DNA from: Chloroflexota bacterium
GTDB taxonomy: Bacteria > Chloroflexota > Anaerolineae > Anaerolineales > VGOW01
Direction of reading: 5' to 3'
DNA length: 49,594 nucleotides
Assembly (NCBI GenBank): GCA_016213135.1
Contig: JACRBQ010000019.1
Span: 1-49,594 of the forward strand
Part shown: positions 5,839 to 49,594 of the stretch, one piece after another
How the letters are laid out: each line of letters starts with the position of its first letter
Position numbering within the stretch: the stretch's first letter is position 1
Program-made: the position numbers and the translations under genes
Notes under the pieces: model-generated
Told to the model about the DNA's origin: nothing
Databases searched by the model: none
The model's input: only the letters and a program-made list of their open reading frames with translations

Positions 5839-5845
5839 TACGTTC

Positions 5846-5851
5846 TATAAT
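5846..5851 (+). promoter_or_regulatory. -10 box TATAAT abutting a start codon (leaderless pattern)
   Basis: TATAAT ends 7 bases before the ATG at 5859, so transcription would begin at about the start codon. No convincing -35 box is at the right spacing (TTGCTC lies 19 bases upstream). Confidence 0.55.
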
Positions 5852-5858
5852 TGGGGAT

Positions 5859-6401
5859 ATGCGCCGCGCCCTCCTCATCGGCCTCCTCCTCAGCGCCGCC
5901 GCCCTGGCTTGCAACTTCCCCGGCCTCGCCGCGCCGCCCACGCGCACCCCGCTGCCCACCATCACCCCCTCGGGCACGGAGCGGCCGGCGAACAATGCCC
6001 AACCCTCCGCCACCACCCCGGCGTCCACGGCCACCCTCACGCCCACGCCGGGCCACACACCCACGCCCACGTCCACCAGCAAACTGCCGCCCACCCCCAC
6101 CCAGCGGCCCGTCGTCGTCCCCAACGCGGGCGGCCCGCTCAACATCACCAACGTCCTCCTCGTATCGGTGGAACGCGATCCGTCGCGGGCCAACGGCGCC
6201 ATCGCCAAAATCAAAATCGAATTCACCGGCGGCCGTTCGCCCTACACTTATTATGAAGAAGGCGTGCGCCAGCGCGGCAACCCGGTGAACGCCCTCACTG
6301 CCTGCGGCGCCACGCTCGTGCACACCGTGCGGGTGGATTCCGCCGACGGCCAAACCGACTCGCAATCGTATTACTTCGACCCGATCGTGTGCCCGCCATG
6401 A
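5859..6401 (+). CDS. Predicted lipoprotein with Pro/Thr-rich linker
   Basis: A 180-residue protein. Residues 1-17 are a lipoprotein signal peptide ending in a lipobox with Cys18 (AALAC). A long Pro/Thr/Ser-rich linker follows (about 25-90) and then a compact C-terminal region (about 92-180) with Tyr/Gly-rich, probably beta-sheet sequence and two Cys. Such linker-type lipoproteins are common in Chloroflexota-like genomes; the C-terminal domain is not one I can name. The ATG at 5859 is chosen because the signal peptide starts there. The stop overlaps the next start (ATGA), so the downstream nuclease is probably co-translated. Confidence 0.75.
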   Translation: MRRALLIGLLLSAAALACNFPGLAAPPTRTPLPTITPSGTERPANNAQPSATTPASTATLTPTPGHTPTPTSTSKLPPTPTQRPVVVPNAGGPLNITNVLLVSVERDPSRANGAIAKIKIEFTGGRSPYTYYEEGVRQRGNPVNALTACGATLVHTVRVDSADGQTDSQSYYFDPIVCPP

Positions 6402-7660
6402 CCGCCGAATCTTTGCGAGATCGATTGCGCCGCCTCGGCGTGAAAACGGGCCGTGACACGTTTGTCAACCCCCCGCCGCCTCGCCAGGGGGCAACCCTGC
6501 CACCAGCCCCCGTCCATAGCCTCATCCCGGGCCGCGAACTGGCCACCAGCGCCGGCGTGTACTTCGTCGCCGAATCCATTTACCCCGTGCATCATCGCCA
6601 CGGCACGCGCGCGCTGGCCGACGTGCTGGCCTGCGACCCGAACACCGCCGCCCGCATCACCCGCAACGACTCGTTCGCCGGCATCGACCTCTCGCGCCTG
6701 GCCTTCTTCGATATCGAAACCACCGGCCTCGCCGGGGGCGCGGGCACGCTGGCTTTCCTCATCGGCGTGGGCGCATTCGAAAACGATGGCTTCATCCTGC
6801 GCCAGTTTTTTTTGCGCGACCCCGCCGAAGAGCACGCCCTGCTGCACGGACTCCTCGAGCAGCTGCAAACACACGAGGCCCTCGTCACCTACAACGGCCG
6901 CTCCTTCGACGTGCCCATCGTGCAATCGCGGCTCACCCTGGCCCGCCGCCGCTTCAACCTGTCCGCGCTGCCCAACCTCGACCTGCTGGCCCCCGCCCGC
7001 CGGTTGTGGCGGGGCCGCACCGAAAATTGCTCGCTCGGCACGCTCGAAACCGCCATCCTCGGCCTGCAGCGTACCGATGCCGACGTGCCCGGTTGGGCCA
7101 TCCCCCAGCTCTACGTGGATTACCTGCGCACCGGCGACGCCCGCGAGATGCAGCGCGTGATCTACCACAACGCCGAAGACATTCTCTCGATGGTGACCCT
7201 CGCCGCGCACATCCTCGACACCTTTGGCGATCCGCTTCACCCGGCGCGCTCCGCCGAAGACTGTTTGCGACTCGCCCTGTGGCACGATGATATGGGTCAG
7301 CCCGCCGAAGCCGAGAGCGCCTTTCGCATTGCGCGGTCCGGCAAACTGCCGCGCACCCAACGGATCGTGTGGTGCCAGCGCTACGCCGCACTTCTCAAAC
7401 GCGCCGACCGTTACGCCGAGGCCGCGCCGCTGTGGGAGCAGTGGGCGCGCCTGGCCCCCGGCGACCCCGCGCCCTGCATTGAACTGGCAAAGTATTACGA
7501 GTGGCACGCCGCCGACTCGGCCCTCGCCGGCGAGTGGGCAGGCAACGCCATGCTCTGCCTCAGCCATTGGCCCAAAGGCTGGAAGCGCGACGAAGCCTGG
7601 GCCGACGTGCAGCACCGCCTCGAGCGCCTGCAACGCAAACAACCCCTGGGCCGCCCATGA
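6398..7660 (+). CDS. YprB-type ribonuclease-H-like exonuclease with C-terminal TPR-like region
   Basis: A 420-residue protein. Residues about 100-285 match the RNase_H_2/YprB family of DEDD exonuclease folds: DIETTGL places Asp105 and Glu107, VTYNGRSFDVP gives the second acidic motif, and YHNAEDILSM gives the last. The remaining 130 residues are alpha-helical and repeat-like (TPR-type). The ATG at 6398 overlaps the lipoprotein stop; a GTG nine bases upstream would add MPA. The stop overlaps the holB ATG (ATGA), so the gene is translationally coupled to a replication gene. It probably acts on single-stranded DNA or RNA ends; the actual substrate is unknown. Confidence 0.85.
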   Translation: MTAESLRDRLRRLGVKTGRDTFVNPPPPRQGATLPPAPVHSLIPGRELATSAGVYFVAESIYPVHHRHGTRALADVLACDPNTAARITRNDSFAGIDLSRLAFFDIETTGLAGGAGTLAFLIGVGAFENDGFILRQFFLRDPAEEHALLHGLLEQLQTHEALVTYNGRSFDVPIVQSRLTLARRRFNLSALPNLDLLAPARRLWRGRTENCSLGTLETAILGLQRTDADVPGWAIPQLYVDYLRTGDAREMQRVIYHNAEDILSMVTLAAHILDTFGDPLHPARSAEDCLRLALWHDDMGQPAEAESAFRIARSGKLPRTQRIVWCQRYAALLKRADRYAEAAPLWEQWARLAPGDPAPCIELAKYYEWHAADSALAGEWAGNAMLCLSHWPKGWKRDEAWADVQHRLERLQRKQPLGRP

Positions 7661-8643
7661 CTCACTGGAACATTGTCGGCCACGCGCGCGCCGTTGCCGC
7701 CCTCGACCGCGACCTTCACACCGATCGTCTGCGCCACGCCTACCTGTTTGCCGGGCCGGCGGCGGTGGGCAAACGCACATTGGCCCTGGCCTTCATTCAA
7801 GCCATCCTGTGCGACACCCGCGCCGCTTGCGGCCATTGCCGCCCGTGCCGCCTTGTGCAAAGCGGCAACCACCCCGACGTGATCACCGTGGCCCCCGTCG
7901 TCAGCGGCAAAACCATTCGCACCGAAAAGATCACCATCGACCGCATCCGCGAATTGAACAGGGCATTGTCGCTCAAGCCGGTGGAGGCCGCCCGCCGCAT
8001 CGGGCTGGTGACCAATTTTGAAACCGCCAACGACGAGGCCGCCAACGCCTTCCTCAAAACCCTCGAAGAGCCGCCCGGCAACGCGCTGCTCATCCTCACC
8101 ACCGATTCGCCGGAATTGTTGCTGCCCACCATTACCTCGCGCTGCGAAGCCGTGACCCTGCGTCCCGTGCCGCTGGCCGCGCTGCGGCAAGCGTTGACGG
8201 AGCGGTGGCGCGCGCCCGCCGAGCGCGCCGATTTACTGGCGCGACTTTCGGGCGGACGGCCGGGGTGGGCCGTGGCCGCCACCGAGTCCACGTTCGAGCG
8301 CCGCCGGCAACGGCTCGACGATTTGCAGCAACTGCTCCCGGCGGCGCGCAGCGCGCGCTTTGCCTATGCCGAGGGCCTGGCGAAAGATCGCGATGCCCTG
8401 CGCGAAACTTTGGAACTGTGGTTGAGCTGGTGGCGCGATGTGCTGCTGGTGGCCTCGGGCGCATCGGCTCTGCCCGTCAACAGCGATCAAGTGGAGGCGC
8501 TGCGCCGTGTCGCCGCCATCCTTGGCCTCGACTCCGCCGCGCAAGCGGTGGCGGCCGTGCAGCGCGCTCTGGCCGCGCTGAGCCGCAACGCCAATGCCCG
8601 CCTGGCGATGGAAGTGTTGCTGCTCGATCTGCCCAAACTTTAA
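7657..8643 (+). CDS. holB: DNA polymerase III delta' subunit
   Basis: A 328-residue AAA+ clamp-loader subunit. The N-terminus WNIVGHARAVAALDRDL is the family hallmark. The P-loop is GPAAVGKRT (33-41). Zinc-binding cysteines are Cys52, Cys58, Cys61 and Cys64. FLKTLEEPP followed by LILTT and the SRCE segment are typical of delta'. It helps load the beta clamp together with tau/gamma and delta. The ATG at 7657 overlaps the preceding stop by four bases, and the short intergenic space suggests an operon starting at the lipoprotein. It ends two bases before the convergent PHP gene, with no room for a separate terminator. Confidence 0.93.
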   Translation: MTHWNIVGHARAVAALDRDLHTDRLRHAYLFAGPAAVGKRTLALAFIQAILCDTRAACGHCRPCRLVQSGNHPDVITVAPVVSGKTIRTEKITIDRIRELNRALSLKPVEAARRIGLVTNFETANDEAANAFLKTLEEPPGNALLILTTDSPELLLPTITSRCEAVTLRPVPLAALRQALTERWRAPAERADLLARLSGGRPGWAVAATESTFERRRQRLDDLQQLLPAARSARFAYAEGLAKDRDALRETLELWLSWWRDVLLVASGASALPVNSDQVEALRRVAAILGLDSAAQAVAAVQRALAALSRNANARLAMEVLLLDLPKL

Positions 8644-8645
8644 CC

Positions 8646-9470
8646 TCACAACCCCAGCACGGCCAGCAACCGTTCGGCATCGGCCTCGGGCACCCACACC
8701 GAGCCAATGCCGCGTCGCCCGTCTTTACGCCACAGGTGAAAGTCGGAGCCGCCTGTGCGCAGCAACCCCCACCGTTCCGCCACCGCGCTCAGCCGCGCCA
8801 CATCCTCCGCCGAGTGATCGAAGTAATAAACTTCGAGCGCATTCAAGCCCGCGTCCACCAACGCGGCCACGTGCGCCTCGCACCCCGACCGCACCGGGTG
8901 AGCCAGCGACGCCACGCCGCCCGCTTTGCGTACAAGGGCGATGGCTTGCTGCGGCGTCAGGGCGTATCGCGGCACAAACGCGGGGCGGCCAACGCCCAAA
9001 TACAAATCGAACGCGTCTTGCGGGGTGTTGGCCCACTGCCCGGCGACCAGCGCGCGGGCAATGTGCAAGCGCCCAATAGCCGCCACACCCGACTGCGCTT
9101 GCACTTGCTCCATGCTCAACGGCACTCCGGTTTCGTTCAGCCGCGACACAATGGCCTGCGCCCGTTGCCGTCGCCGCACGCGCAGTTCGCCCAGCGCGGT
9201 TTGCAGTTCGGCGTGGCCCGGTTGCGCAAAATACCCCAGCACGTGCGCCTCGCCCGTCGGCCACTCGGCGTTGATTTCCACCCCGGCAATCACCTTCACC
9301 CCCGTTGCCTGCGCCTGCGCCTCGGCCTCGGCGCAGCCCGACGTGGTATCGTGATCGGTGAGGGCCAGCACGCGCACGCCGCGCGCCGCAGCCTGCTCCA
9401 CCACCCGGGCCGGAGTCCATCGCCCGTCCGATTCGGTGGTGTGCACATGGAGATCGATGTGTGAGATCAC
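8646..9470 (-). CDS. PHP-domain phosphoesterase (nucleoside 3',5'-bisphosphate phosphatase / RNase AM-like)
   Basis: A 274-residue PHP protein starting with GTG at 9470. DLHVHTTESDG holds the first metal-binding histidines, ALTDHDTTSG the second motif, IAGVEIN the Glu ligand, ASLAHPVR a His, and GGSDFHLW the last Asp/His pair. This motif order fits the YciV/RNase AM group, which removes phosphate from 3',5'-bisphosphonucleotides or trims 5' ends of RNA. It lacks a polymerase domain, so it is not PolC or DnaE. It is convergent with holB and divergent from dnaA. Confidence 0.88.
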   Translation of the reverse strand: MISHIDLHVHTTESDGRWTPARVVEQAAARGVRVLALTDHDTTSGCAEAEAQAQATGVKVIAGVEINAEWPTGEAHVLGYFAQPGHAELQTALGELRVRRRQRAQAIVSRLNETGVPLSMEQVQAQSGVAAIGRLHIARALVAGQWANTPQDAFDLYLGVGRPAFVPRYALTPQQAIALVRKAGGVASLAHPVRSGCEAHVAALVDAGLNALEVYYFDHSAEDVARLSAVAERWGLLRTGGSDFHLWRKDGRRGIGSVWVPEADAERLLAVLGL

Positions 9471-9850
9471 AATCGCCCGGGCCGTTGAACTGATCGACTG
9501 CCGTCACTCATCCTGTTTGTCCCCGCTCTATCCACAATTCATCAGCAAGTCGTCCACATCGCGTCCACACGAAAGAAAAAACTTCGTTGCCACGCAAGGT
9601 TTGGAGTTGATAGGCTCACTCCATTTAAGGTCGGCGTATGCCTTCCGCTTGTTTGTCCGCACCGGCCCTCCGCTGCCCCATATTTGGGAGGGCCGCGCCC
9701 GCCACGGGCACAGCCGCGGGCATCGGCGCCTCGTCGCCCGTCTCCGGCCCCTCGCCCAACAGATGGCAATCACCGCGCGCACTGCGTCAGGGCTTAAGGA
9801 TCGTGTTCCTTAAAACATCGAATCTTTTTAGAGAGTTGCGGCAAACGCTA
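9471..9850. other. Intergenic region between PHP gene and dnaA promoter
   Basis: No gene with convincing coding character is seen. It holds one DnaA-box-like 9-mer, CTATCCACA (9528-9536, one mismatch to TTATCCACA), further GTCCACA-like words near 9550-9567, and a hairpin GGCCCTCC (9664-9671) / GGAGGGCC (9687-9694) without a T-tract. DnaA autoregulation through the box is possible. An open frame at 9638-9979 has no coding features and crosses the dnaA promoter. Confidence 0.5.
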
Positions 9851-9879
9851 TTGAAACAGGCGGACGATCCTGATAGAAT
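9851..9879 (+). promoter_or_regulatory. Sigma-70-type promoter of dnaA
   Basis: TTGAAA (9851-9856), a 17-base spacer and TAGAAT (9874-9879), with TG one base before the -10 (extended -10). Transcription would start near 9886, giving a leader of about 170 bases before the dnaA ATG. It is among the best promoters in the window. Confidence 0.7.
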
Positions 9880-10054
9880 GCAGGTCACCGTCGAGAAGAA
9901 TTTTCCAATTCAAATTTATGCGAGTGGGTGGCTCGCGAGCTTTTCATCGCACTGCGCTGCGATGCCTGAAAGCAACTAGAAGTTTATTGCAGCACCGATC
10001 GCAATGGCTTCTTTTTTTCGTCTCCGGCGGCAGTGTTTTTATCTGGAGTCATGC

Positions 10055-11401
10055 ATGAAACCCGATCAAGTCTGGCAAGCCACGTTGGGAGAGTTGCAGC
10101 TTCAACTCACCAAATCAACTTACGACACCTGGCTGCGCGACACGTCGCTCATCTCTCACGAGGATGGCACGTTTGTCGTGGGCGTGGAGAATGCCTACGC
10201 CAAAGACTGGCTGGAGAATCGTTTGTTGTCCACCGTCAAGCGCACGCTCACCGGCATCACGGGCCGCACCGCCGAAGTGCGCTTTGTGGTGTGGTTGCCC
10301 GAAGCGCCCGACCTCGAAGCGGCCACACCGTTGGGGGGCGCGCCTGCCGCTGCCGCTCGCGTGGATGCGCCCGCTTCGCGGCTGAATCCCAAATACGACT
10401 TTAGCTCGTTTGTGGTGGGGCCGAGCAACCGGCTGGCCCACGCCGCCACGCTGGCCACTGCCGAGAACCCGGCGCGCGCTTACAACCCGCTGTTCCTTTA
10501 CGGCGGCGTGGGGCTGGGCAAGACGCATCTGCTGCACGCCGTAGGCAACGCCTGCGCCGAGCGCGGGCTGGTGGTGCTTTATGTTTCGGCAGAGGAATTC
10601 ACCAACGACCTCATCAACTCCATTCGCGCCCGCAACACCGAACTCTTCCGCGACAAGTATCGCACCATCGACGTGCTGCTGATCGACGACATTCAGTTCA
10701 TCGCCGGCAAAGAAGCCACGCAGGAAGAATTCTTCCACACCTTCAACACCCTGCACGGCCAGAACAAGCAAATCGTCATTTCATCCGACCGTTCGCCCAA
10801 GGCGCTGGTCACCCTGGAAGAGCGGCTGCGCTCGCGGTTTGAATGGGGCCTCACCGCCGACATTCAGCCGCCGGACTTTGAAACCCGCACCGCCATTCTG
10901 CGGGCCAAGGCCGAGGTCATGCGCCAACCCGTGCCCCCCGAAGTCATCGAGCTGATTGCGCGCCGGGTGCAAAGCAACATCCGCGAACTGGAGGGCGCGC
11001 TGAACCGCGTGTGCGCCTACGCCGACATCCTCGGACAACCGCTCAATTTGGAAACCGCCGCCGGGGCCATTGCCGACCTGCTTCCCCGTCGGCACAGCCT
11101 CACCTCGGATCACATCCTCGGCACGGTGGCCTCCTATTATGCCATCAGCGTTGACGATTTGTTGGGCCGCGACCGCACCCGCGAGGTGACGTTGCCCCGC
11201 CAGATGGCGATGTACCTCGTCCGCGAGGAGACCGACGCCTCGCTGCCGGAGATCGGGCAGATGCTCGGCGGGCGCGATCACACCACGATCATTCACGGCT
11301 GCGACAAAATCAGCAACCTCATCGAAACGGACGACGCTACCCGGCGGCAATTCTTAGCCATACGCGAGCGCCTGTATGCCGAGAGCGGGGTCCCGGCGTA
11401 G
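10055..11401 (+). CDS. dnaA: Chromosomal replication initiator DnaA
   Basis: A 448-residue DnaA of normal architecture. Domain I (1-80) begins [16 protein letters not shown] short variable domain II rich in Ala follows (about 85-110). The AAA+ domain III has Walker A GGVGLGKT (150-157), Walker B LLIDDIQF (208-215) and sensor/arginine motifs. Domain IV ends with the DNA-binding signature [14 protein letters not shown] (406-419). An in-frame ATG 17 codons upstream would add a sequence foreign to the family, so the ATG at 10055 behind TCTGGAG is preferred. It binds DnaA boxes and opens the origin; boxes lie just downstream. dnaN does not follow here. Confidence 0.97.
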
Positions 11402-40804: not shown

Positions 40805-41920
40805 ATGAACAGAGTACGAGTATTGGTTGGCACCCGCAAGGGCGCATTCATTCTCACCTCAAGCGCCAAGCGCAAGAGGTGGGACATCAGCGGCCCCCAC
40901 TTTGCGGGCTGGGAGATTTACCACCTCAACGGGTCGCCCGCCGACCCGAACCGGCTGTATGCCTCGCAATCCACCGGCTGGTTCGGGCAGTTGATCCAGC
41001 GCTCCAATGACGGCGGTAAGACGTGGGAGGCGGTGGACAACAAGTTTGTGTACGACGGCGTCCCCGGCACGCACCAGTGGTACGACGGCACACAACACCC
41101 CTGGGAGTTCAAGCGCGTCTGGCGTCTCGAACCGTCGCTGACCGACCCGGACACGGTGTACGCCGGGGTGGAAGACGCCGCCCTGTTCCGCTCCGCCGAC
41201 GGCGGGCAGACGTGGCAGGAGCTTCCCGGGCTACGCGCCGCTAAAGGGCATCTCTGGCAGCCAGGCGCCGGTGGGATGTGCCTGCACACGATCGTGCTGG
41301 ATCCGAGCAACCCCAAACGGATCTTCATCGCCATCTCGGCCGCGGGCGCGTTCCGCACCGACGATGGCGGCCAGACGTGGCGACCCATTAACCACGGCCT
41401 GAAGTCCCCCTACGAACTCCCCGACGCGAGCGCCGAGGTCGGCCACTGTGTTCACAACATCGCGATGCATCCATCGCGTCCGGGCGTGCTATTCATGCAG
41501 AAGCATTGGGACGTGATGCGGACTGATGACGCCGGCGAGTCTTGGCGCGAGGTCAGCGGTAACTTGCCGAGCGACTTTGGATTTCCAATCGCCGTGCACG
41601 CGCACGAGCCAAACACCGTCTACGTCGTCCCGATCAAGAGTGACTCGGAACACTATCCGCCCGATGGCAAGCTGCGCGTGTATCGCAGTCGCACGGGCGG
41701 GAATGAGTGGGAGGCGCTCACAAACGGCCTGCCGCAAAGCGACTGCTATGTGAACGTATTGCGCAGCGCGCTGGCTGTCGACTCGCTCGATTCGTGCGGC
41801 GTTTACTTTGGCACCACCGGCGGGCAGGTGTACGCCTCCGCCGATTCCGGCGACAGTTGGACGGCCATCGTCCGCGATCTTCCCGCCGTATTGTCCGTTG
41901 AAGTTCAGACACTACCGTGA
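40805..41920 (+). CDS. BNR/Asp-box beta-propeller protein (sialidase-like fold)
   Basis: A 371-residue protein with Asp-box repeats (S/T-x-D-x-G-x-T/S-W): [32 protein letters not shown] and SADSGDSW at the expected intervals of a beta-propeller. It has no signal peptide, so it is probably cytosolic. The Arg triad of sialidases is not evident, so a glycosidase role is unproven. AAAGGAAC lies before the ATG. The stop overlaps the GTG of the MoaD/ThiS-like gene, which makes a coupled pair. Confidence 0.85.
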
Positions 41921-42213
41921 TCCGCGTTGTGCTCCCGCATCATCTGCGGACGCTGGCGCAAGCCGGCAAAGAGGTTCACCTTCAAATCGAAGGGCCGACG
42001 ACGCTGGGCGCGGTTCTGGATGCCCTGGAGGCCCGGTATCCGATGTTGCGCGGGACGATCCGTGACCACCTCACGCAACAGCGTCGGCCCTTCATTCGGT
42101 TCTTCGCCTGCGGGCAGGATTTGTCCCATCAACCGTCGGCTGCCTCGCTGCCCGATGCGGTCACGATGGGAACAGAGCCTTTTCGGATTGTGGGGGCCAT
42201 GGCTGGCGGCTAG
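41917..42213 (+). CDS. MoaD/ThiS-type ubiquitin-like protein
   Basis: A 98-residue beta-grasp protein ending in Gly-Gly (VGAMAGG), the hallmark of sulphur carrier or ubiquitin-like proteins activated by an E1-type enzyme. [27 protein letters not shown] is the MoaD/ThiS core. It starts with GTG at 41917, overlapping the propeller gene's stop by four bases. No moaE, thiG or E1-like gene is near. The pair propeller + MoaD-like recurs in bacteria to my knowledge, but its role is unknown. Confidence 0.85.
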
Positions 42214-42216
42214 GCC

Positions 42217-42987
42217 ATGAAACGCTTCCTCATCCTCGGCAGTTTCGGCGCGGCCATTGCCACCTTCGGCCTCAACATCGGGCCGGCCTTCTCCGCCCCG
42301 GTCAGCCTGCCGACGCCGCTCTTTCAGCCCTTTCTCAACACACTCGCTGTCGCGCCGTTGGCCGGGGCCATGGTCGGCGCGGCGATGGTGTGGCTGGCTG
42401 TTCGCTGGCCCAACCCAGTGGCACAAGCGGGGCTGGGTGCGGGCCTGGCGCTGATGATAATTTTGCTCGCCGGTTGGTTTCCCTTTGACTTCCAGCTTAA
42501 TGCTCCGGCGCTCGTGCTGGCCGCCGTTGTATTGGGCGCACTCATCGGCGCGGCGGCGGGCGTCATCTCCAGCCTTACGCAGTCTCTGAGCGAGGCGGAC
42601 TTGCGCCGCGCCCTGCGCGCCGCCGGTCTCACGGCTGTGCTGACTCCTATCGCCACCGTCTTGGTGGTCCTCGCGTTAACTTTGCTCGGCATAGCCCTGG
42701 CCTCTCTGCTCGCGCCCCCGCCCGATCCATCATTGACGGAGTCCTACCCGCCGGGCCTCGGCGTGATGCTCTTCGGCATCCTCGCCTTGGGTCAGGCGGC
42801 CTTCCAAGAGTCTTCTTGCCCATCGTCGCGGTCATCGTCGGCGGGCTGGCCGGGCTGATCGCCGGCTGGCTCACGCCGTCGGATGAAGCGGGCGTCCCTG
42901 GCCGAGTCTCGCCCGGCGTAATAACGGCAATCGTAGGCTTCACTATCGCCCAAACATATTTCTGGCTTGGGAGGATCTTTCCAAAGT
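42217..42987 (+). pseudogene. Frameshifted integral membrane protein gene
   Basis: The first frame (42217-42858) encodes about 190 residues of a membrane protein with roughly five segments, then runs into Ser-rich nonsense (SSCPSSRSSSAGWPG). The true continuation LPRVFLPIVAVIVGGLAGLIAGWL, followed by TPSDEAGVPGR and another hydrophobic stretch, is in another frame from about 42801. A single frameshift near 42800 explains both. It could be a sequencing error. Family not recognised. It follows the MoaD-like gene by three bases. Confidence 0.6.
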
Positions 42988-42992
42988 CCATT

Positions 42993-43262
42993 GACAAAAG
43001 GCCATGCCTGTGCGCGTGGGAGCGGGTTGCACCCGCCACCGGGCATACCGGCGGTGTGTGGGCGTTGAGCTTTTCGCCGGATGGCCGCTTGCTGGCCTCC
43101 GGCTCGGCGGATCGCGCGGTGCGGGTGTGGGATGTGACCCACGGAGTAGAACTCATGGTTCTGAGCGGCTACACGAGCGACATGTTGCGGGTGGCCTTCT
43201 CACGCGACGGGCGGGCCTTGGCATCGGCGGAGAGTGTGGTGTGGGTGTGGGGCGTGAGGTGA
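42993..43262 (+). pseudogene. WD40-repeat fragment
   Basis: About 85 residues with two WD40 blades: TGHTGGVWALSFSPDGRLLA, SGSADRAVRVWDVTHG, then a degenerate blade ending VWVWGVR. It has no start of its own and lacks the other repeats needed for a propeller. It is a remnant of a larger WD40 gene, joined to the end of the broken membrane gene. Confidence 0.7.
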
Positions 43263-43270
43263 CCCGGAAT

Positions 43271-43311
43271 CCCAATTCACGATCTCCTCACGTTCGTTTG
43301 ATAGGCTGAGG
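43271..43311 (+). promoter_or_regulatory. Upstream element shared with the peptide gene, copy 1
   Basis: 43271-43303 match 46709-46741 at 27 of 33 positions, including the exact word ACGATCTCCTCACG (43279-43292). The element ends 29 bases before the M50 start. GATAGGCTGAGG (43300-43311) recurs at 47115-47126 beside the peptide-gene relic. A shared promoter or operator is the simplest reading. Confidence 0.6.
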
Positions 43312-43332
43312 GTCGAGAGGAACACACAGCCC

Positions 43333-46300
43333 ATGACCTTCCCCGCCTGGTGGCCGTCGGCCACCCCGGCCCCCACCGCCTCGACCCCCGCCTCGCTGTG
43401 GCAGGAACTCAAAGCCAAGATCGATCTCGCCCAGGCGCGTCCGGCGCAGGCCGAGGGCGTGCTGACGCACGAGTTAAGCGACCGCACCGGGCCGTACGTC
43501 GTGCTCAAGAACCCGCGAACGCGCACCTATCAGCGCCTCTCGCCGGGTGAGCATTGGCTGTGGCAGCGCATGGACGGGACGCGCACGGTGCAGGATTTGG
43601 TCGTCGCCTACTTCCTTCAATACCATTCGTTCGCCTTCGGCCTCATCGCCGGGCTGGTGGCGCAACTGGGCTTCAAACAGATGTTGCGCGAGAAGCCGCA
43701 GTTCGTTTTCTCGGCAGTGGGCCGCGCCGTGGCCGAAGCGACGACCGCCCACAAACTCTCTTCCCCGGCGCTCGTTCTGCTCACGCGGCAGTGGGTCATC
43801 CGCGGGCTGGACGGCTGGATGACGCGCCTGCACCGGGCGGGCGGCTGGGTCTTCTACACGCTCCCGGCGCAGATCATCTACTTGCTCGTCAGCGCGGTCG
43901 GCCTGTATCTATTCACGCGCATCCTCGGCGACGCGCGCTTCAAGTTCGGCGGCGGCGGCCTCGGCCAGAGCGCGGCCTTGTTGTGGGTGGCGGCGATCCT
44001 GCCCATCGTGATTCACGAACTGGCTCACGCGCTGACGACGAAACACTTCGGTTGCGAGGTGCATCAGGGCGGGCTGATGCTGTACTTCGGGATGCCGGCG
44101 GCGTTCGTGGACACGACCGACATCTGGACGCAGGGCAAGCGCGCGCGGCTGGCGGTGACGTGGGCCGGGCCGTACACCGGCCTGATCATCGGCGGGCTAT
44201 GCTCGATCACGATCTGGCTGTGGCCCGGCCTCGGGCTTGCCCCGCTTCTCTTTCAGGTGGCCGCCGTCGGCATGATCACCACGGTGATGAATCTCAACCC
44301 CCTGCTCAAACTCGACGGCTATTACCTGCTCTCGGACGCGCTGGAGATCGCCCAATTGCGCGAGCGCTCGCTGGCCTTCCTGCGCCACAAGCTGGTCCCC
44401 AAAGTCCTCAAGCGCGAGAGAAACTGGACGCGCGACGAGATCATCTTCGTCGTCTTCGGCGTGCTGTCGGGACTGTGGACGGTCTACATTATTTACGTGA
44501 GTCTCATCGTCTGGAACCGGCGGGTGGCGCAGAGCGTGCAGGCCATCCTCAGCCAGCCGGGCGACATTGGGGCGCTCCTCGTCAACCTTCTGCTGATCTT
44601 GCTGGCGCTTTCATTTCTCACGTTGATCGGTTTTCAATTGGTTCGACTGGTTCGACTGGCCGTGGCCTGGGCTGTTCGCCGCAAATTATTGGGGACGCCG
44701 GGTCGGGCCGGGCTGGCCGTCACCATTGGAGCAGCGACGCTCGCGCTGCTGCCGCAGATCGTCGCTCCGGACGCGGCGCCGATCATTGTGGCCGCTCTCG
44801 GCCTGTTGGCATTCGCGTGGGGCGTCCGGCTGGCGCTGGCTCTGGCCGCCGAAATGCGCGGCTCGATGCACGCCAAAGCCTGGCCGGCCATCGCCGCCAG
44901 TCTGACTCTGCTCGGGCTGGCCCAGATCATGCCGGCCTTGCGTGCGCCGGTCGCCGGGCCGGCCTTGTGGCTCGACGTTGCCGGCGCGGTGGCCGGCCTG
45001 ATGGCGCTGATATTCTCCGGGCGGCTCGTCGCCGGCTTGCGAGGCGGTTGGCGGGCGGTCTCGGCGCTCACCCTGGCGCTGGGCGGCGCGGCGTTGGTCG
45101 CGCAACGAGTCGCCGGAGGCCAGGCTGCCGCGCATGCTTTCGCCGGACTGCTGATCCTCGGCGGGTTGCTTCACTGGCGCTATGCCATCGTTACTTCCGG
45201 GACGCTCGAACCGCTCATCGCCCAACCGGCCACGACGCGCGACCGGCTGATGACTGCGTTCGATTTGCTGGCGAGATCGGCCTTGGCCGAACTGCGCTCG
45301 ACCTACGGGCGCGGGACGGCGCGTCGCGTCGAGACAGCCTTCAACCGCGCTTCCGCCGCGCAGCATTGGACGCTGGCCTTCGTCGAGGGCCAATTGCGGG
45401 CGCAATCCGTTCCGGCCAGGCCCGCGTTCACCGCGATGACTGCGGCCGACCTCGCCGAAGTGTACGCCGCCGCGCTCACCAGCCTGCTCGACGCAGCGGC
45501 CATGGTCGCCGGGGATTCGTTCGCCCGCCGGGCGCTGGCGCGAGGCTACGACGCGCTCGATTGGGAGGGCCGTGAGATCGCGGGCGAATATATTCTGGCG
45601 CGCATGCGCTGGGCCGCCGGGCTGGCCGAGATGTTCCGTGAGACCCGCCACGACGTGACATCGCTGCTCGAGCGCGCGCCCCTGTTCGTGTCGTTCACGC
45701 CGGAGGAAATACAAGCCGTGGCCCGCCGCCTGCGTTCGGAAACGTTCGCGGCGGGCGCGGACATTGTCCGCCAGGGCGGGAAAGGGGATCGGTTTTACCT
45801 TCTGCGGCGCGGGCGGGTGAAGGTGCTGGTGCGCAACGATGAGGGGGACGAGCGCGCGGTCAACGAGTTGGTCAGCGGCGACTATTTCGGCGAGGCCGCG
45901 CTGCTCACCGGCGAGCCGCGCAACGCCACCGTCTGCGCCCTTACGCCGGTCGAGGCGCTGTCGTTGAGCAAGCGCGATTTCGACCGGCTGGTGCGCGCCG
46001 GGTTCGAGGGTGGGGCCAAGATAGACGCCGTGCTCAAACGCATCGGCCTCCTGCGGCGCATTCCGCTCTTCGCCGATTTCGAGAGTTACGAATTGAAACT
46101 CGTCGCGGCGCAGCTCGAAACGCAAGAGGCCGAGGCCGGGGCGACGATTATCCGCCAGGGCGAGGTCGGCGACAAGTTCTATATCGTCGAGGCGGGCGAG
46201 GCGGCGGTGCGTCTGCGCGGGCCGGATGGGGCGGAGGTCGAGCGGGCGCGGCTGGGGCCGGGCGACTATTTCGGCGAGATCGCGCTGTTGATGGACGTGC

Positions 46301-46467
46301 CGCGCGTGGCCTCGGTGGTTGCGGTCGGGGCGGCGCGGCTGTTGACGCTGAATGCGGCGGCCTTCAACGAACTGGTGCGCGAGTCGCGCAGCGCGAAGTT
46401 GGCGCTGGAGCGGGCCGGGTCGCGGCGGGCCTTGTCCAACGAGCAATTTATGAAGGAGGCGCAATGA
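43333..46467 (+). CDS. M50-type membrane metalloprotease with PqqD-like N-terminus and two cNMP-binding domains
   Basis: A 1044-residue protein. Residues about 43-115 (YVVLKNPRTRTYQRLSPGEHWLWQRMDG and on) resemble PqqD, the peptide-binding fold of RiPP systems. A membrane region (about 170-480) has the zinc motif HELAH (His228, Glu229, His232) and NPLLKLDG (322-329, Asp328), the M50 site-2-protease signature. A second hydrophobic stretch (about 480-640) and a helical part (about 640-775) follow, then two cyclic-nucleotide-binding domains (about 779-895 and 914-1020; GDYFGEAALLTGEPRNATV and GDYFGEIALLMDVPRVASV). It is probably a membrane protease regulated by cAMP/cGMP-like ligands. The zinc-ribbon gene overlaps its stop and the peptide gene follows. 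Confidence 0.88.
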   Translation: MTFPAWWPSATPAPTASTPASLWQELKAKIDLAQARPAQAEGVLTHELSDRTGPYVVLKNPRTRTYQRLSPGEHWLWQRMDGTRTVQDLVVAYFLQYHSFAFGLIAGLVAQLGFKQMLREKPQFVFSAVGRAVAEATTAHKLSSPALVLLTRQWVIRGLDGWMTRLHRAGGWVFYTLPAQIIYLLVSAVGLYLFTRILGDARFKFGGGGLGQSAALLWVAAILPIVIHELAHALTTKHFGCEVHQGGLMLYFGMPAAFVDTTDIWTQGKRARLAVTWAGPYTGLIIGGLCSITIWLWPGLGLAPLLFQVAAVGMITTVMNLNPLLKLDGYYLLSDALEIAQLRERSLAFLRHKLVPKVLKRERNWTRDEIIFVVFGVLSGLWTVYIIYVSLIVWNRRVAQSVQAILSQPGDIGALLVNLLLILLALSFLTLIGFQLVRLVRLAVAWAVRRKLLGTPGRAGLAVTIGAATLALLPQIVAPDAAPIIVAALGLLAFAWGVRLALALAAEMRGSMHAKAWPAIAASLTLLGLAQIMPALRAPVAGPALWLDVAGAVAGLMALIFSGRLVAGLRGGWRAVSALTLALGGAALVAQRVAGGQAAAHAFAGLLILGGLLHWRYAIVTSGTLEPLIAQPATTRDRLMTAFDLLARSALAELRSTYGRGTARRVETAFNRASAAQHWTLAFVEGQLRAQSVPARPAFTAMTAADLAEVYAAALTSLLDAAAMVAGDSFARRALARGYDALDWEGREIAGEYILARMRWAAGLAEMFRETRHDVTSLLERAPLFVSFTPEEIQAVARRLRSETFAAGADIVRQGGKGDRFYLLRRGRVKVLVRNDEGDERAVNELVSGDYFGEAALLTGEPRNATVCALTPVEALSLSKRDFDRLVRAGFEGGAKIDAVLKRIGLLRRIPLFADFESYELKLVAAQLETQEAEAGATIIRQGEVGDKFYIVEAGEAAVRLRGPDGAEVERARLGPGDYFGEIALLMDVPRVASVVAVGAARLLTLNAAAFNELVRESRSAKLALERAGSRRALSNEQFMKEAQ

Positions 46468-46676
46468 ACTGCTGGCAATGTGACCGACCGGCGCACGGGG
46501 TGTGCCGGTTCTGTGGCCGGGCGACGTGCCGGGATCATGCCCGGAAGATGCCCTATATTATGGAAATCTATCAGGGCGAGAACGGCGAACACAAAGCAGT
46601 GGTCGTCGAGGACGCGCTGTACTGTGGGCAATGCAAGCCGCGGGAGGACCCGGTGGCGTTGAAGGGGCTAAGGTAG
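46464..46676 (+). CDS. Small B-box-like zinc-ribbon protein
   Basis: A 70-residue protein. Cys3, Cys6, Cys14, Cys17, Cys22 and His25, then Cys54 and Cys57, give the spacing of one or two zinc sites, B-box-like. Residues 30-50 form a short beta segment (MPYIMEIYQGENGEHKAVVVE). The start overlaps the M50 stop by four bases (ATGA), so it is co-translated and likely acts with the protease. No nucleic-acid-binding motif is apparent; a protein-binding role is more likely. Confidence 0.82.
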   Translation: MNCWQCDRPAHGVCRFCGRATCRDHARKMPYIMEIYQGENGEHKAVVVEDALYCGQCKPREDPVALKGLR

Positions 46677-46701
46677 AGACGTTCCGGTGGAACGTCTCTA
46701 C
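46673..46701. repeat. Palindromic repeat at the end of the zinc-ribbon gene
   Basis: Perfect 13-base arms (GTAGAGACGTTCC at 46673-46685, GGAACGTCTCTAC at 46689-46701) with a GGT loop; the stop codon of the zinc-ribbon gene lies in the first arm. Half of the same motif (ACGTCTCTAC) occurs near 36102-36111. It may stop transcription between the protease and peptide genes. Confidence 0.75.
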
Positions 46702-46708
46702 GGGATGG

Positions 46709-46741
46709 CCCAATAAACGATCTCCTCACGATCGCCTGCTA
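46709..46741 (+). promoter_or_regulatory. Upstream element shared with the M50 gene, copy 2
   Basis: Same 33-base element as 43271-43303 (27 of 33 positions), here 48 bases before the peptide start. A TACGAT box just beyond (46740-46745) could be a -10. Between element and gene the 13-base word AGCAACAAATCAG occurs twice with a 16-base period (46749-46761, 46765-46777), the second copy overlapping the AGGAG ribosome site. Confidence 0.6.
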
Positions 46742-46789
46742 CGATGGGAGCAACAAATCAGAAAAGCAACAAATCAGGAGACCTATTCC

Positions 46790-47029
46790 ATGTCCGCTGA
46801 AACCGTCACCACCATCATCCGCCGCGCCGTGGCCGAACCGGAGTTCCGGGGGCTGTTGTTCCGCAACGCGTCCGCCGCGCTGGCCGGGTACGACCTGGCC
46901 GAGGCCGAACACGCCGCGCTCACCGGCCTGAACGCCGAGAACTTCGACGCGCTGGCCGGGGAACTCGAAGCGCGAGTTTCCAAAGTCGCCGGGGCTGGCC
47001 TAGCGATTGGGTTCTTCAATCACCCTTGA
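46790..47029 (+). CDS. NHLP-clan-like small peptide (candidate RiPP precursor)
   Basis: A 79-residue peptide. SAETVTTIIRRAVAEPEFRGLLFRNASAALAGYDL followed by EAEHAALTGLNAENFDALAGELEARVSK resembles leader regions of the nitrile-hydratase-leader-peptide clan (Os1348 and Franean1_4349-type precursors: VxxxIxRAxxDxxFRxxLxxDPxxALxGYxLTxxE). The tail VAGAGLAIGFFNHP (about 66-79) would be the core; it is Gly/Ala-rich and hydrophobic, without Cys or Ser/Thr clusters, so lanthionine- or thiazole-type modification is unlikely. The ATG at 46790 has AGGAG 9 bases upstream. No radical-SAM, cyclodehydratase or ABC exporter gene is in the window. The role may instead be regulatory. Confidence 0.72.
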   Translation: MSAETVTTIIRRAVAEPEFRGLLFRNASAALAGYDLAEAEHAALTGLNAENFDALAGELEARVSKVAGAGLAIGFFNHP

Positions 47030-47087
47030 TCGGCACGTCATCGAGATGACCGCACGCTCAGGTCTTCAACGAGAGGAAACCACCCCC

Positions 47088-47126
47088 ATTTCCGCTGAAA
47101 CTGTCACCACGTAGGATAGGCTGAGG
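47088..47126 (+). pseudogene. Truncated second copy of the peptide gene's start
   Basis: ATT replaces ATG, then SAETVTT is encoded almost as in the intact gene (positions 47091-47111 match 46793-46813 with few changes) and TAG follows at 47112-47114. GAGAGGAAAC upstream stands for the ribosome site. Directly after the stop, GATAGGCTGAGG (47115-47126) matches the element before the M50 gene. It overlaps the 3' end of the convergent regulator gene. Confidence 0.7.
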
Positions 47127-49594
47127 CAAAATCTGAGCGGAGAATCTCCGCCACCACCTCTTCCAGTTGCCTCGCCCGCCCTCTTTCCTGCGCGGCGGCT
47201 ATGATCGGCGCGGACAAGTGCGCCTCCAGTTGGACGAGTAATTGATCGGCCCGGCCCTTCGTCTCGTGGTTGGCCGCGCCATGGTGAAGTACAAGCGCCG
47301 CCACTTCAACCGCCCGTTCTCTTTCCTCTTGCCCGGCCAGCAGAACGGCGGCGCTCACCAACCCAAACAGCGTCGCCGAGACCGAGCCAATCTCCCTCGC
47401 CATCTGCAAGGCCCCGAACGTATGCTTCCAGGCCTCGCGGTATTCGCCAAGCGCGCCGGCCACGCCCCCTAAACTCCCCAACGCATGGGCGGCAATATGA
47501 CGGTGCCCCAGTTCTTGGCAGAGCGTCAGGCATTCTTGGAGCAAGAGCCGAGCTTCGGCATACTCACTCAACATGTGGCAAGCAACACCCAGATTGTTGA
47601 GTGAAACCGCCTCGCCCATCGGATAGCCAATCTCGCGGAAAATAGCGAGTGCCTCTCGCTCAAACGGCTTCGCTTCAGCATACTGACCCTGCGCAAGCGC
47701 CACGTTGCCCAGATTGACAAGCGCGATGGCCATCCCCCTTCGATCGCCAATCTCTCGCTTTATCGCCAGACTCTCCTCTTGAAGCCGCCGGGCTTCTTCA
47801 AACTCACCCCGCTCGGTATGCACCGTGCCCAGGGTGTTAAGTGAAGCGGCGATGGCGCGTGGATTGCCGGCAACGCGGTGCAGAGACAAACTCTGCCGAG
47901 CATATTCTATCGCTTGGGCGAAATCGCCCACCGCCCGGGCCATGTTGCCGAGGCATTGCAGGCAGAGCGCCTCCTCGGCTGGCAGGGGTGGCTGGGCATT
48001 GCGAAAAATCATCAGGCTTTGTTGAATGAGTGGGCGCGCCGCCTCAAAGCGGTCGAGCCGGTGATAAAACCAAGCCTGCCGCGCAAGCAGCTTCCCCAAC
48101 AGCGGGCTGTCGTCGCCGGCACGGGCTCGCTCCGCCTCGGCGGCGGCCCCGAACAACTTGACGGCCTCGGTGTACCACCCCGCGTTTTCGAGGAACACGC
48201 GCAGGCTCTCCAGCGACGGCTCGAGCACGTCGAGTTGTGGCTGGGCGACCGCCCAACCCCAGGCCGCGCGAATGTTATCTATCTCGGCGGCGATCTCCCG
48301 CCGCGCCTCGTTCTGGCGCGCGTCGTTCTGTGCGTCTTCACGCGCGCCCAGAAAGCCGATGTAGTATTCGCAGTGCCGCGCCTGCGCCTCGCCGAACACC
48401 TGCGGTTCGGCGCGCAATTTGCCGTCGGCGTATTGCCGCAGCAGTTCGTGGATCGAATAGCGCCCGTTCACGTCGCGGCGGATGAGCGATTTGTCGCACA
48501 GGGCGGCGAGAACGGGTAACTGGTAAGTGGTAATTGCCGCAGCCGCCTCGCGCTCGCAGCCGCCATGAAAGACGGACAGCCAGGCAAAGGCCCGTTGCTC
48601 GTCCGCCGAGAGCAGGGCATACGAATGCTCGAACGCGGCCTGCAGGCTGCGATGACGGGCCGGCACGTTTTTCTGCGTCGTCGCCAGAAAGTCCAGACTG
48701 CGCGCGATCTCGTCGGCGATCTCGCGGCATGAGAATTGCCGCACCCAGACTGCGGCCAGTTCAATCGCCAGCGGCAAGCCGTTCACCAACCGGCAGATGC
48801 GCGCCACACCGGTTCGATTCTCGCCGTCGAGCGCGAAATCGGGCTGGGCGCTCCGGGCGCTGTTGAGGAATAGTTGCGCGGCGCTGTATTCAGTGATCGA
48901 CTCGCCGTCTGCGTCCGGTGGCACGTCCAGCCCGCTCAATTCGATCAATTGCTCGCCGTGCAGATTCAATCGCTCGCGCGAGGTCACCAGCAAGCGCACG
49001 TCGGGGCAGGCCAGCGCGATGCGGCCCAGCAGCTCGTCGGCCCCCGGCAGATGCTCCAGATTGTCCAGCACCAGCAATAGGTCTTGGTGGCGCAGGTGAG
49101 CCACGAGTTGATCGCGCGGGTCGGCCTTGCCGCTCAAGGCCAGGCCCAGCGCCTCCGCGATGGCGCTGGGGACGACTTCAAGCGAACTGACGGCGGCCAG
49201 CGGCACGAAACACACGCCGTTCAGAAAGGCGTCGGCGGCGCGCGCGGCGGATTCGAGAGCCAGGCGCGTCTTGCCGCTCCCGCCCGGCCCGGTGAGCGTA
49301 GTCAACCGGCAAGTGGGATCGGCCAACAGGCGGGCGATCTGCGCCAGTTCTTCGGCGCGGCCCACGAAAGGCGTGGCTGCCGGGGGCAAGTTGTAGCGGC
49401 GGGTCGCGGTGCGGAGGCGCTCGTAGAGGGCGGTCGTTTCGGGCGCAGGCTCAAGGCCCAATTCGTCGGCCAGCGCGCGGCGGCAAGCCTCGAACTGGGC
49501 CAGGGCGGCGGAACGCTGGCCGGTGCGGGCCAGCAGTTCCATCATGCGCCGGTGGGCTTCTTCGTTCCACGGCTCCAAGCCGAGCCAGCGGCGC
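47104..49594 (-). CDS. BTAD/NB-ARC/TPR transcriptional regulator, SARP/AfsR-like (5' end outside window)
   Basis: About 830 residues are visible, and the frame continues beyond the right edge. The visible start reads RRWLGLEPWNEEAHRRMMELLARTG followed by QRSAALAQFEACRRALADELG, the end of a bacterial transcriptional activation domain (BTAD). Next is an NB-ARC-type STAND ATPase: P-loop TGPGGSGKTRLA, Walker B LLLVLDNLEHL, then RLLVTSRERL and LPLAIELAA. The last 400 residues are TPR repeats (for example LGNMARAVGDFAQAIEYARQSL and LNTLGTVHTERGEFEEARRLQEESLAI). An N-terminal winged-helix DNA-binding domain is expected outside. Such regulators control secondary metabolism in actinobacteria. It converges on the peptide gene. 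Confidence 0.9.
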   Translation of the reverse strand, partial: RRWLGLEPWNEEAHRRMMELLARTGQRSAALAQFEACRRALADELGLEPAPETTALYERLRTATRRYNLPPAATPFVGRAEELAQIARLLADPTCRLTTLTGPGGSGKTRLALESAARAADAFLNGVCFVPLAAVSSLEVVPSAIAEALGLALSGKADPRDQLVAHLRHQDLLLVLDNLEHLPGADELLGRIALACPDVRLLVTSRERLNLHGEQLIELSGLDVPPDADGESITEYSAAQLFLNSARSAQPDFALDGENRTGVARICRLVNGLPLAIELAAVWVRQFSCREIADEIARSLDFLATTQKNVPARHRSLQAAFEHSYALLSADEQRAFAWLSVFHGGCEREAAAAITTYQLPVLAALCDKSLIRRDVNGRYSIHELLRQYADGKLRAEPQVFGEAQARHCEYYIGFLGAREDAQNDARQNEARREIAAEIDNIRAAWGWAVAQPQLDVLEPSLESLRVFLENAGWYTEAVKLFGAAAEAERARAGDDSPLLGKLLARQAWFYHRLDRFEAARPLIQQSLMIFRNAQPPLPAEEALCLQCLGNMARAVGDFAQAIEYARQSLSLHRVAGNPRAIAASLNTLGTVHTERGEFEEARRLQEESLAIKREIGDRRGMAIALVNLGNVALAQGQYAEAKPFEREALAIFREIGYPMGEAVSLNNLGVACHMLSEYAEARLLLQECLTLCQELGHRHIAAHALGSLGGVAGALGEYREAWKHTFGALQMAREIGSVSATLFGLVSAAVLLAGQEERERAVEVAALVLHHGAANHETKGRADQLLVQLEAHLSAPIIAAAQERGRARQLEEVVAEILRSDFASAYPTW

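Follow-up and report, generated by a model that had tools for sequence, protein, structure and literature searches.

The gene set and its three products

The DNA analysed here, called the window throughout, is the 49,594-nucleotide stretch covering positions 1 to 49,594 of contig JACRBQ010000019.1 (assembly GCA_016213135.1) from a Chloroflexota bacterium. Towards its 3' end, three genes on the forward strand encode a membrane metalloprotease with an N-terminal segment resembling PqqD and the recognition elements (RREs) of ribosomally synthesised and post-translationally modified peptides (RiPPs), a zinc-ribbon protein, and a peptide with a leader of the Os1348 family of the NHLP clan. This gene set is more than a chance grouping, as it recurs in other genomes. 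Its coding features are as follows (cNMP, cyclic nucleoside monophosphate; AF2, AlphaFold2).

43333-46467 (+): open reading frame (ORF) of the PqqD-like/M50/(cNMP-binding)x2 intramembrane metalloprotease, 1044 amino acids
43438-43698 (+): PqqD/RRE-like segment, protease residues 36-122 (PF05402, AF2 topology, NF041824 match from residue 38)
44014-44319 (+): zinc active site of the M50 core, from HELAH (residues 228-232) to NPLLKLDG (322-329) (sequence and alignment of 52)
45649-46458 (+): tandem cNMP-binding domains, approximately residues 773-1042 of the protease
46464-46676 (+): ORF of the zinc-ribbon protein, 70 amino acids, overlapping the protease ORF by 4 bases
46790-47029 (+): Os1348/NHLP-clan precursor with ATG start, 79 amino acids (leader 1-65 ending R62-V-S-K65, then a 14-residue tail)

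Residues H228, E229, H232, P323, D328, G329 and Y330 of the protease did not vary among 52 aligned sequences, and the HExxH and NPxxxxDG-type motifs by which M50/site-2 proteases (S2P) are recognised are both present. The Pfam M50 profile gave 24.7 bits for the window protein (cut-off 27.2) and matched 33 of 36 relatives at E<=0.01. Two cNMP-binding domains were matched by PF00027 (156.7 bits, over the cut-off), and their phosphate-binding cassette is intact (FGE and PR residues; ligand binding is predicted). The ORF, the invariant residues and the PF00027 score uphold an earlier note on this DNA, which had described a 1044-amino-acid membrane protease with HELAH, NPxxxxDG and two cNMP domains. 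The cNMP region is also matched, below cut-off, by TIGR03896 ('bacteriocin-type transport-associated protein'); Haft and colleagues are said to have noted cNMP-binding proteins together with NHLP-type transport.

The PqqD-like N-terminal segment proposed in the same note does have an RRE-type match. The best NCBIfam match in this part of the protein, NF041824 (daptide RRE-M50 peptidase), aligns to residues 38-428 and so takes in the RRE and M50 parts together (145.7 bits, E=2e-42), and the Pfam PqqD profile (PF05402) was found at E<=1 in 9 of 11 family segments (best 9.3e-6), the window protein lying below the Pfam cut-off. The AF2 model shows the beta3-alpha3 winged-helix topology of PqqD/RRE domains at residues 44-114 (block pLDDT, the predicted local distance difference test, about 86-94), with strands at 44-50, 53-60 and 65-69 and helices at 71-79, 86-97 and 102-114 assigned by DSSP; the likeness is one of topology in the model. 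Short repetitive beta-trefoil matches of the segment profile in the Protein Data Bank (PDB) were taken as chance, and a match at E=1 to TfuB1, which we take to be an RRE protein, was not used as evidence. A fold search of the whole protease returned a list filled by the cNMP domains, in which the absence of PqqD and S2P rows is uninformative.

The ORF coordinates confirm the 70-amino-acid zinc-ribbon protein and its four-base overlap. Cysteines C3, C6, C14, C17, C22, C54 and C57 were invariant among 44 aligned sequences. The AF2 model (mean pLDDT 84.0) had no match in the PDB at E below 1.2, and B-box/C5HCH Pfam matches were below cut-off. Members of this family also occur without PqqD-M50 (L071, L072-L075; L and G numbers denote loci and genomes), where their direct neighbours encode a ParA/MinD-type ATPase and a cNMP-binding protein; in the loci checked, genes for a class III cyclase and a PrsW-type protease lie close by. 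L074 and L075 are known only by their zinc-ribbon and cNMP matches.

The 79-amino-acid peptide passed NF038399 ('Os1348 family NHLP clan') with 52.4 bits (cut-off 40), in agreement with its first description as Os1348/NHLP-clan-style. Its score with PF14407 (Frankia_peptide) was 37.2 bits, below the gathering cut-off of 48, and a precomputed table still lists PF14407 for it. R62 and S64 are invariant in 16/16 aligned close homologues, the leader being nearly constant and the tail hypervariable.

A shared upstream element

Apart from the coding features, four DNA elements were found at the locus.

43271-43308 (+): promoter-like element 5' of the protease gene, sharing 79% identity over 38 nt with 46709-46746 (repeat search)
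46675-46699 (no strand): perfect inverted repeat (11-nt arms, 3-nt loop) where the zinc-ribbon gene ends, before the peptide's promoter-like element (by eye, no terminator scan)
46709-46746 (+): second copy of the promoter-like element, 5' of the peptide gene (repeat search and genome motif counts)
47074-47110 (+): degenerate repeat of the ribosome site and opening codons of the peptide gene, with start ATT and an early stop (repeat search, 81% over 37 nt)

The 14-base core of the promoter-like element has two exact copies in the 3.84-Mb genome, both at this locus, and one additional copy with one mismatch. A relaxed 25-base form (<=2 mismatches) was found twice in the genome (one match for the reversed control), a count that rules out a genome-wide sigma-factor site in the window genome. 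L111 and L232 have a similar element 5' of their peptide genes. At position 8010 of L110, a copy stands before a nucleotidase-like gene (by eye) upstream of the protease; the element is therefore not strictly private to the system in relatives.

Immediately 5' of the protease's element is a WD40-repeat-like fragment (42816-43262, +; by eye), perhaps a gene remnant. A BNR/sortilin-repeat protein followed by a 98-amino-acid candidate ubiquitin-fold protein of ThiS/SAMP1 type (weak matches) occupies 40805-42213 (+).

Recurrence of the three genes

A PqqD-M50 match at E<=1e-20 was found in 60 of 400 genomes of the phylum. Outside the window there were 67 M50 places, of which 60 were taken (those left out were G402, G070:C450, G238, G080:C167, G171, G390 and G205), and eight related loci were obtained from a species-genome collection. 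In all, 69 loci were scanned (the window, L070, L110-L116 and L152-L211) with profiles built in this analysis; the surveyed sequences are related to one another. The leader profile was built from hits in the same loci, so that its counts are not independent; as an independent check, NF038399 was passed by 8 of 9 chosen leader proteins, the ninth scoring 39 against a cut-off of 40 bits.

The zinc ribbon was present at 25 of the 69 loci and an Os1348-type leader within 5 kb at 29. Among the zinc-ribbon loci the leader was found at 19 of 25, and the peptide gene thus is conserved beside the protease, the neighbourhood check that the earlier note had proposed. At 13 loci the order protease, zinc ribbon, leader is kept on one strand (window, L111, L155, L174, L180, L192, L193, L194, L195, L197, L198, L204 and L205). 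Six zinc-ribbon loci are without a leader; L116 stops inside the protease, and L070 and L156 stop close behind it. Leaders occur elsewhere in genomes G129, G223 and G246 (those of L153, L156 and L170). Overall there were 35 leader hits in the 615 kb lying within 5 kb of M50. The 495 kb at greater distance gave 2, both from the L184 array, and 168 kb of control loci gave none.

Co-occurrence was also seen genome-wide. In 20 genomes that we chose among those with PqqD-M50, the leader family was over cut-off in 18, the zinc ribbon was present in 19, and 17 had both. As background, the zinc ribbon was found in 8 (one marginal) of 61 genomes of the window's order (window included), and NF038399 was over cut-off in 4. 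That the genes are chance neighbours with no functional link would fit the many M50 loci with neither partner nearby, and is scarcely credible given the order kept in 13 loci, the co-occurrence in trans in 17/20 chosen genomes and the shared, unique upstream element.

Clustering of 886 neighbour ORFs of the M50 loci (clusters spanning at least 3 loci and named by eye, with small overlapping ORFs removed) gave no transporter or modifying enzyme common to leader-bearing loci. A single ABC-ATPase cluster was found in three loci without leaders (L161, L175 and L177). Within the reach of this clustering, a conserved exporter or maturase was rejected as part of the system.

The end of the leader and its variable tails

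Of 37 leader hits at M50 loci, 26 end their leader with the motif R-hydrophobic-[ST]-[KR]; none of 13 leader-like hits elsewhere than at M50 has it. The control set was drawn from 33 leader-like hits outside the window, of which 14 were inspected (12 scripted and 1 by eye after L040 was dropped; L040 has the motif, and an M50 gene lies on another contig of its genome); 12 of the 13 come from genomes in which no PqqD-M50 match was found, and 10 score under the cut-off of the family. By eye, the motif was also seen in unlinked leaders of M50-bearing genomes (L242-L247, L249, L250 and L256; not L258), and the contrast is therefore one between genomes with and without the protease, not one of distance.

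Tails of 4 to 1,170 residues follow the leader. Long tails are acidic and rich in G/A/S/T, with few lysines and no cysteine (one exception, behind a masked stretch). Short hydrophobic tails include VAGAGLAIGFFNHP in the window and VTGAGLAIGFYS in L232, and SAGRGF-type ends are conserved in several genomes. The leader is thus also borne by proteins of hundreds of residues, which goes beyond the peptide-only view taken at first. In L184 (4059-19903), five leader-bearing ORFs surround one PqqD-M50 gene; four have tails of >570 residues, two of them >950, and one runs off the stretch.

The short hydrophobic tails and the conserved SAGRGF-type ends could be taken to indicate pheromone maturation of the Eep type, in which the M50 enzyme would release a short hydrophobic signal sensed by a TPR-type regulator. 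A BTAD/AAA/TPR regulator does lie downstream of the peptide gene and convergent with it (47104-49578, -, extending to the window edge), and there is a precedent in the requirement for Eep, an S2P-family protease, in short hydrophobic peptide (SHP) signalling (PMC3150281). However, other lineages have tails of 88 to 1,170 residues, which are not pheromones, and regulators of this type may be common in these genomes, so that this neighbour may be there by chance. We consider this explanation improbable.

Radical-SAM enzymes and the question of decay

The radical S-adenosylmethionine (SAM) C-methyltransferase family TIGR03975 reached at best 65.9 bits in the window genome (cut-off 281.85); the assembly is 92.8% complete, and a copy in the missing ~7% could therefore have been missed. 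Two close relatives have the enzyme. In L111 (Anaerolineae Bin_34), the PqqD-M50 part is 60% identical to that of the window and the order is protease, zinc ribbon, peptide, TIGR03975 (650.8 bits), the last ORF overlapping the stop of the peptide; a second set on the same contig consists of zinc ribbon, leader peptide, RimK-type ATP-grasp and PqqD-M50-cNMP protease. In the L110 genome (PqqD-M50 part 68% identical), an element of this kind precedes four tandem peptides, and TIGR03975 (622.4 bits) follows them; the set is on a different contig from the protease. A protease 95% identical to the window's (P0002) was found on a 4.3-kb contig.

Among 28 PqqD-M50 genomes, again chosen by us, TIGR03975 was over cut-off in 3, including both closest relatives whose neighbourhoods were read; 11 of the 25 without it show the window's gene order. 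With the enzyme missing from 25 of 28 genomes, its absence is therefore the rule in the group. The locus had been called minimal and unusual in the earlier note; the lack of a radical-SAM gene held for TIGR03975 at its cut-off, and the arrangement itself proved to be common. Known TIGR03975 RiPP systems share the leader type, and in both L111 and the L110 genome the enzyme is encoded next to the peptide, but it is not over cut-off in the window genome or in 25/28 genomes of the group.

These relatives bear on a second explanation, that the locus is a decayed conventional RiPP pathway whose ancestor had an Os1348 peptide array with TIGR03975, the window genome having kept the leader peptidase, the zinc ribbon and one precursor. 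The peptide directly followed by TIGR03975 in L111, the tandem array with the enzyme in the L110 genome, the degenerate second peptide start at 47074-47110 and the lack of TIGR03975 over cut-off in the window genome would all be expected of such decay. Enzyme-less genomes make up 25 of the 28, however, and 11 of them have the window's gene order. Decay is in our view unlikely, though it deserves to be kept in mind.

Two further contexts with radical-SAM genes were noted. By eye, L233 has at 5763-11000 (-) a PqqD-M50-like gene together with three ORFs of unassigned type and two leader peptides whose tails contain cysteine; two full TIGR03975 enzymes are encoded on the same contig. Arrays of long paralogues starting M-[DN]-E-L-E occur in L112, L113, L234 and L235 (motif and gene types by eye); those in L112 and L235 stand beside several radical-SAM-like genes and resemble another peptide or protein modification system.

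Cyclase neighbours and the FHA branch

In 10 of 10 searched genomes of families f36 and f72, in which the leader is unlinked to the protease, the best leader gene adjoins a gene for a large TPR protein (large regions were read in 3 of the 10, and the gap between the genes in G318 is ~0.5 kb). The TPR protein, read whole in G189, G221 and G318, carries an AAA domain and TPRs besides a cyclase domain of class III (PF00211, E=2.5e-30 to 5.4e-28). The remaining seven were assigned by homology of the adjoining TPR part to these cyclase-TPR proteins (54-94% identity to the nearest). The same pair was found in a third family (G339; PF00211 E=2.7e-25). Because unlinked leader genes adjoin a cyclase-TPR gene, cyclic-nucleotide control gains support. 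The TPR part of the window's BTAD/AAA/TPR regulator is only distantly related to the cyclase-TPR proteins (24-31% identity).

In G189, G221 and G318, the leader protein next to the cyclase gene is 72 amino acids long and has almost no tail. Together with a second branch of the family, this would fit regulated intramembrane proteolysis or docking, a third alternative in which the Os1348 domain is a docking tag or degron for controlling regulators such as an extracytoplasmic function (ECF) sigma factor and not a leader taken off a product. In that branch (L112-L114, L116 and L070), the order is zinc ribbon, two-FHA protein and PqqD-M50 protein without cNMP domains; an ECF sigma factor comes next where the contig continues and, in L112-L114, is followed by a protein ending in an Os1348 domain. 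Hypervariable tails after the leader in most M50-linked hits speak against this alternative, as do the radical-SAM or ATP-grasp enzymes alongside the leader in some loci, and we judge it distinctly unlikely.

Comparison with known systems

To our knowledge, Eep has neither an RRE nor cNMP domains. Its substrates differ from those predicted for the window system. It resembles the window protease as an S2P-family membrane metalloprotease, one that is required for short-peptide signalling (PMC3150281). The daptide leader is removed by MpaP, termed an 'RRE-dependent intramembrane peptidase' (PMC10036551). As in MpaP/NF041824, an RRE-like domain is fused to an M50 core, alignable over window residues 38-428 (E=2e-42). 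Unlike it, the window protease misses the equivalog cut-off of 300 (145.7 bits), is extended by a long membrane region and a pair of cNMP-binding domains, and would have an Os1348-type substrate. No daptide oxidative decarboxylase, aminotransferase or methyltransferase was found among 3 flanking and 8 other window proteins, no genome-wide search having been made. The comparison suggests that the system would work like MpaP, but with other partners and a sensory module.

The window leader domain agrees with Os1348/NHLP-clan precursors (NF038399; Os1348 of Pseudomonas sp. Os17) in passing the curated cut-off; the setting differs, as a protease and a zinc ribbon accompany it in the window and long low-complexity tails follow it in relatives. 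No paper describing this system was found in the open-licence literature that was searched.

A proposed mode of action

What was observed is the gene content, its conserved order, the shared upstream element, the conserved catalytic and phosphate-binding residues, the co-occurrence of the three families in the chosen genomes and the cyclase neighbours in related families. From these sequence data we infer docking, cleavage and cyclic-nucleotide gating, and we hold it on balance probable that an RRE-type intramembrane metalloprotease docks the Os1348 leader through its PqqD-like domain, cuts near Arg-hydrophobic-Ser-Lys and is switched by a cyclic nucleotide. The PqqD-like domain would bind the leader in the way expected of the MpaP RRE in daptide systems, and the protease would cut it at or near R-hydrophobic-S-K, under gating by cyclic AMP or cyclic GMP and with the zinc ribbon as adaptor or regulator. 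The released product would be the variable tail (VAGAGLAIGFFNHP in the window). In some lineages a radical-SAM methyltransferase may modify the tail first; in most genomes tested, and in the window, release would occur without that modification.

Several findings weigh against this proposal. PF05402 reached only 16.4 bits (E=0.012) in the window protease, below its cut-off of 23.4, and was found at E<=0.01 in only 6 of 36 full-length relatives; a PDB profile search with the PqqD segment gave no PqqD entry at a significant level. In L111 the phosphate-binding arginine is lost from both cNMP domains (by eye), and gating is therefore not universal. Of the 69 M50 loci, 40 lack a leader within 5 kb and 44 lack the zinc ribbon; L153, L166 and L170 have the zinc ribbon and enough room, yet no leader. 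Genome-wide, the leader family was not found in G244 (the genome of L166) or G284, nor the zinc ribbon in G339. The closing motif is missing from 11 of the 37 M50-locus leader hits, and in L112-L114 the leader domain stands at the end of the protein, with only four residues after the motif.

A broader form of the proposal, which we advance tentatively, would make the RiPP-type leader a general docking tag for a PqqD-M50 protease switched by a cyclase-made cyclic nucleotide. The cargo would be unmodified, from 14 to ~1,000 residues (repetitive and Cys-free), with the zinc ribbon as fixed adaptor and FHA replacing the cNMP sensor in one branch.

The system joins three usually separate fields of study: the recognition of RiPP leaders, proteolysis within the membrane and signalling by cyclic nucleotides. 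If the proposal is true, large proteins without modification would also be subject to leader recognition, and peptide release would come under second-messenger control. Genes of this set, annotated in Chloroflexota as 'putative peptide zinc metalloprotease' or 'hypothetical protein', would then gain a testable function, in a signal-controlled route for the maturation of peptides and larger proteins.

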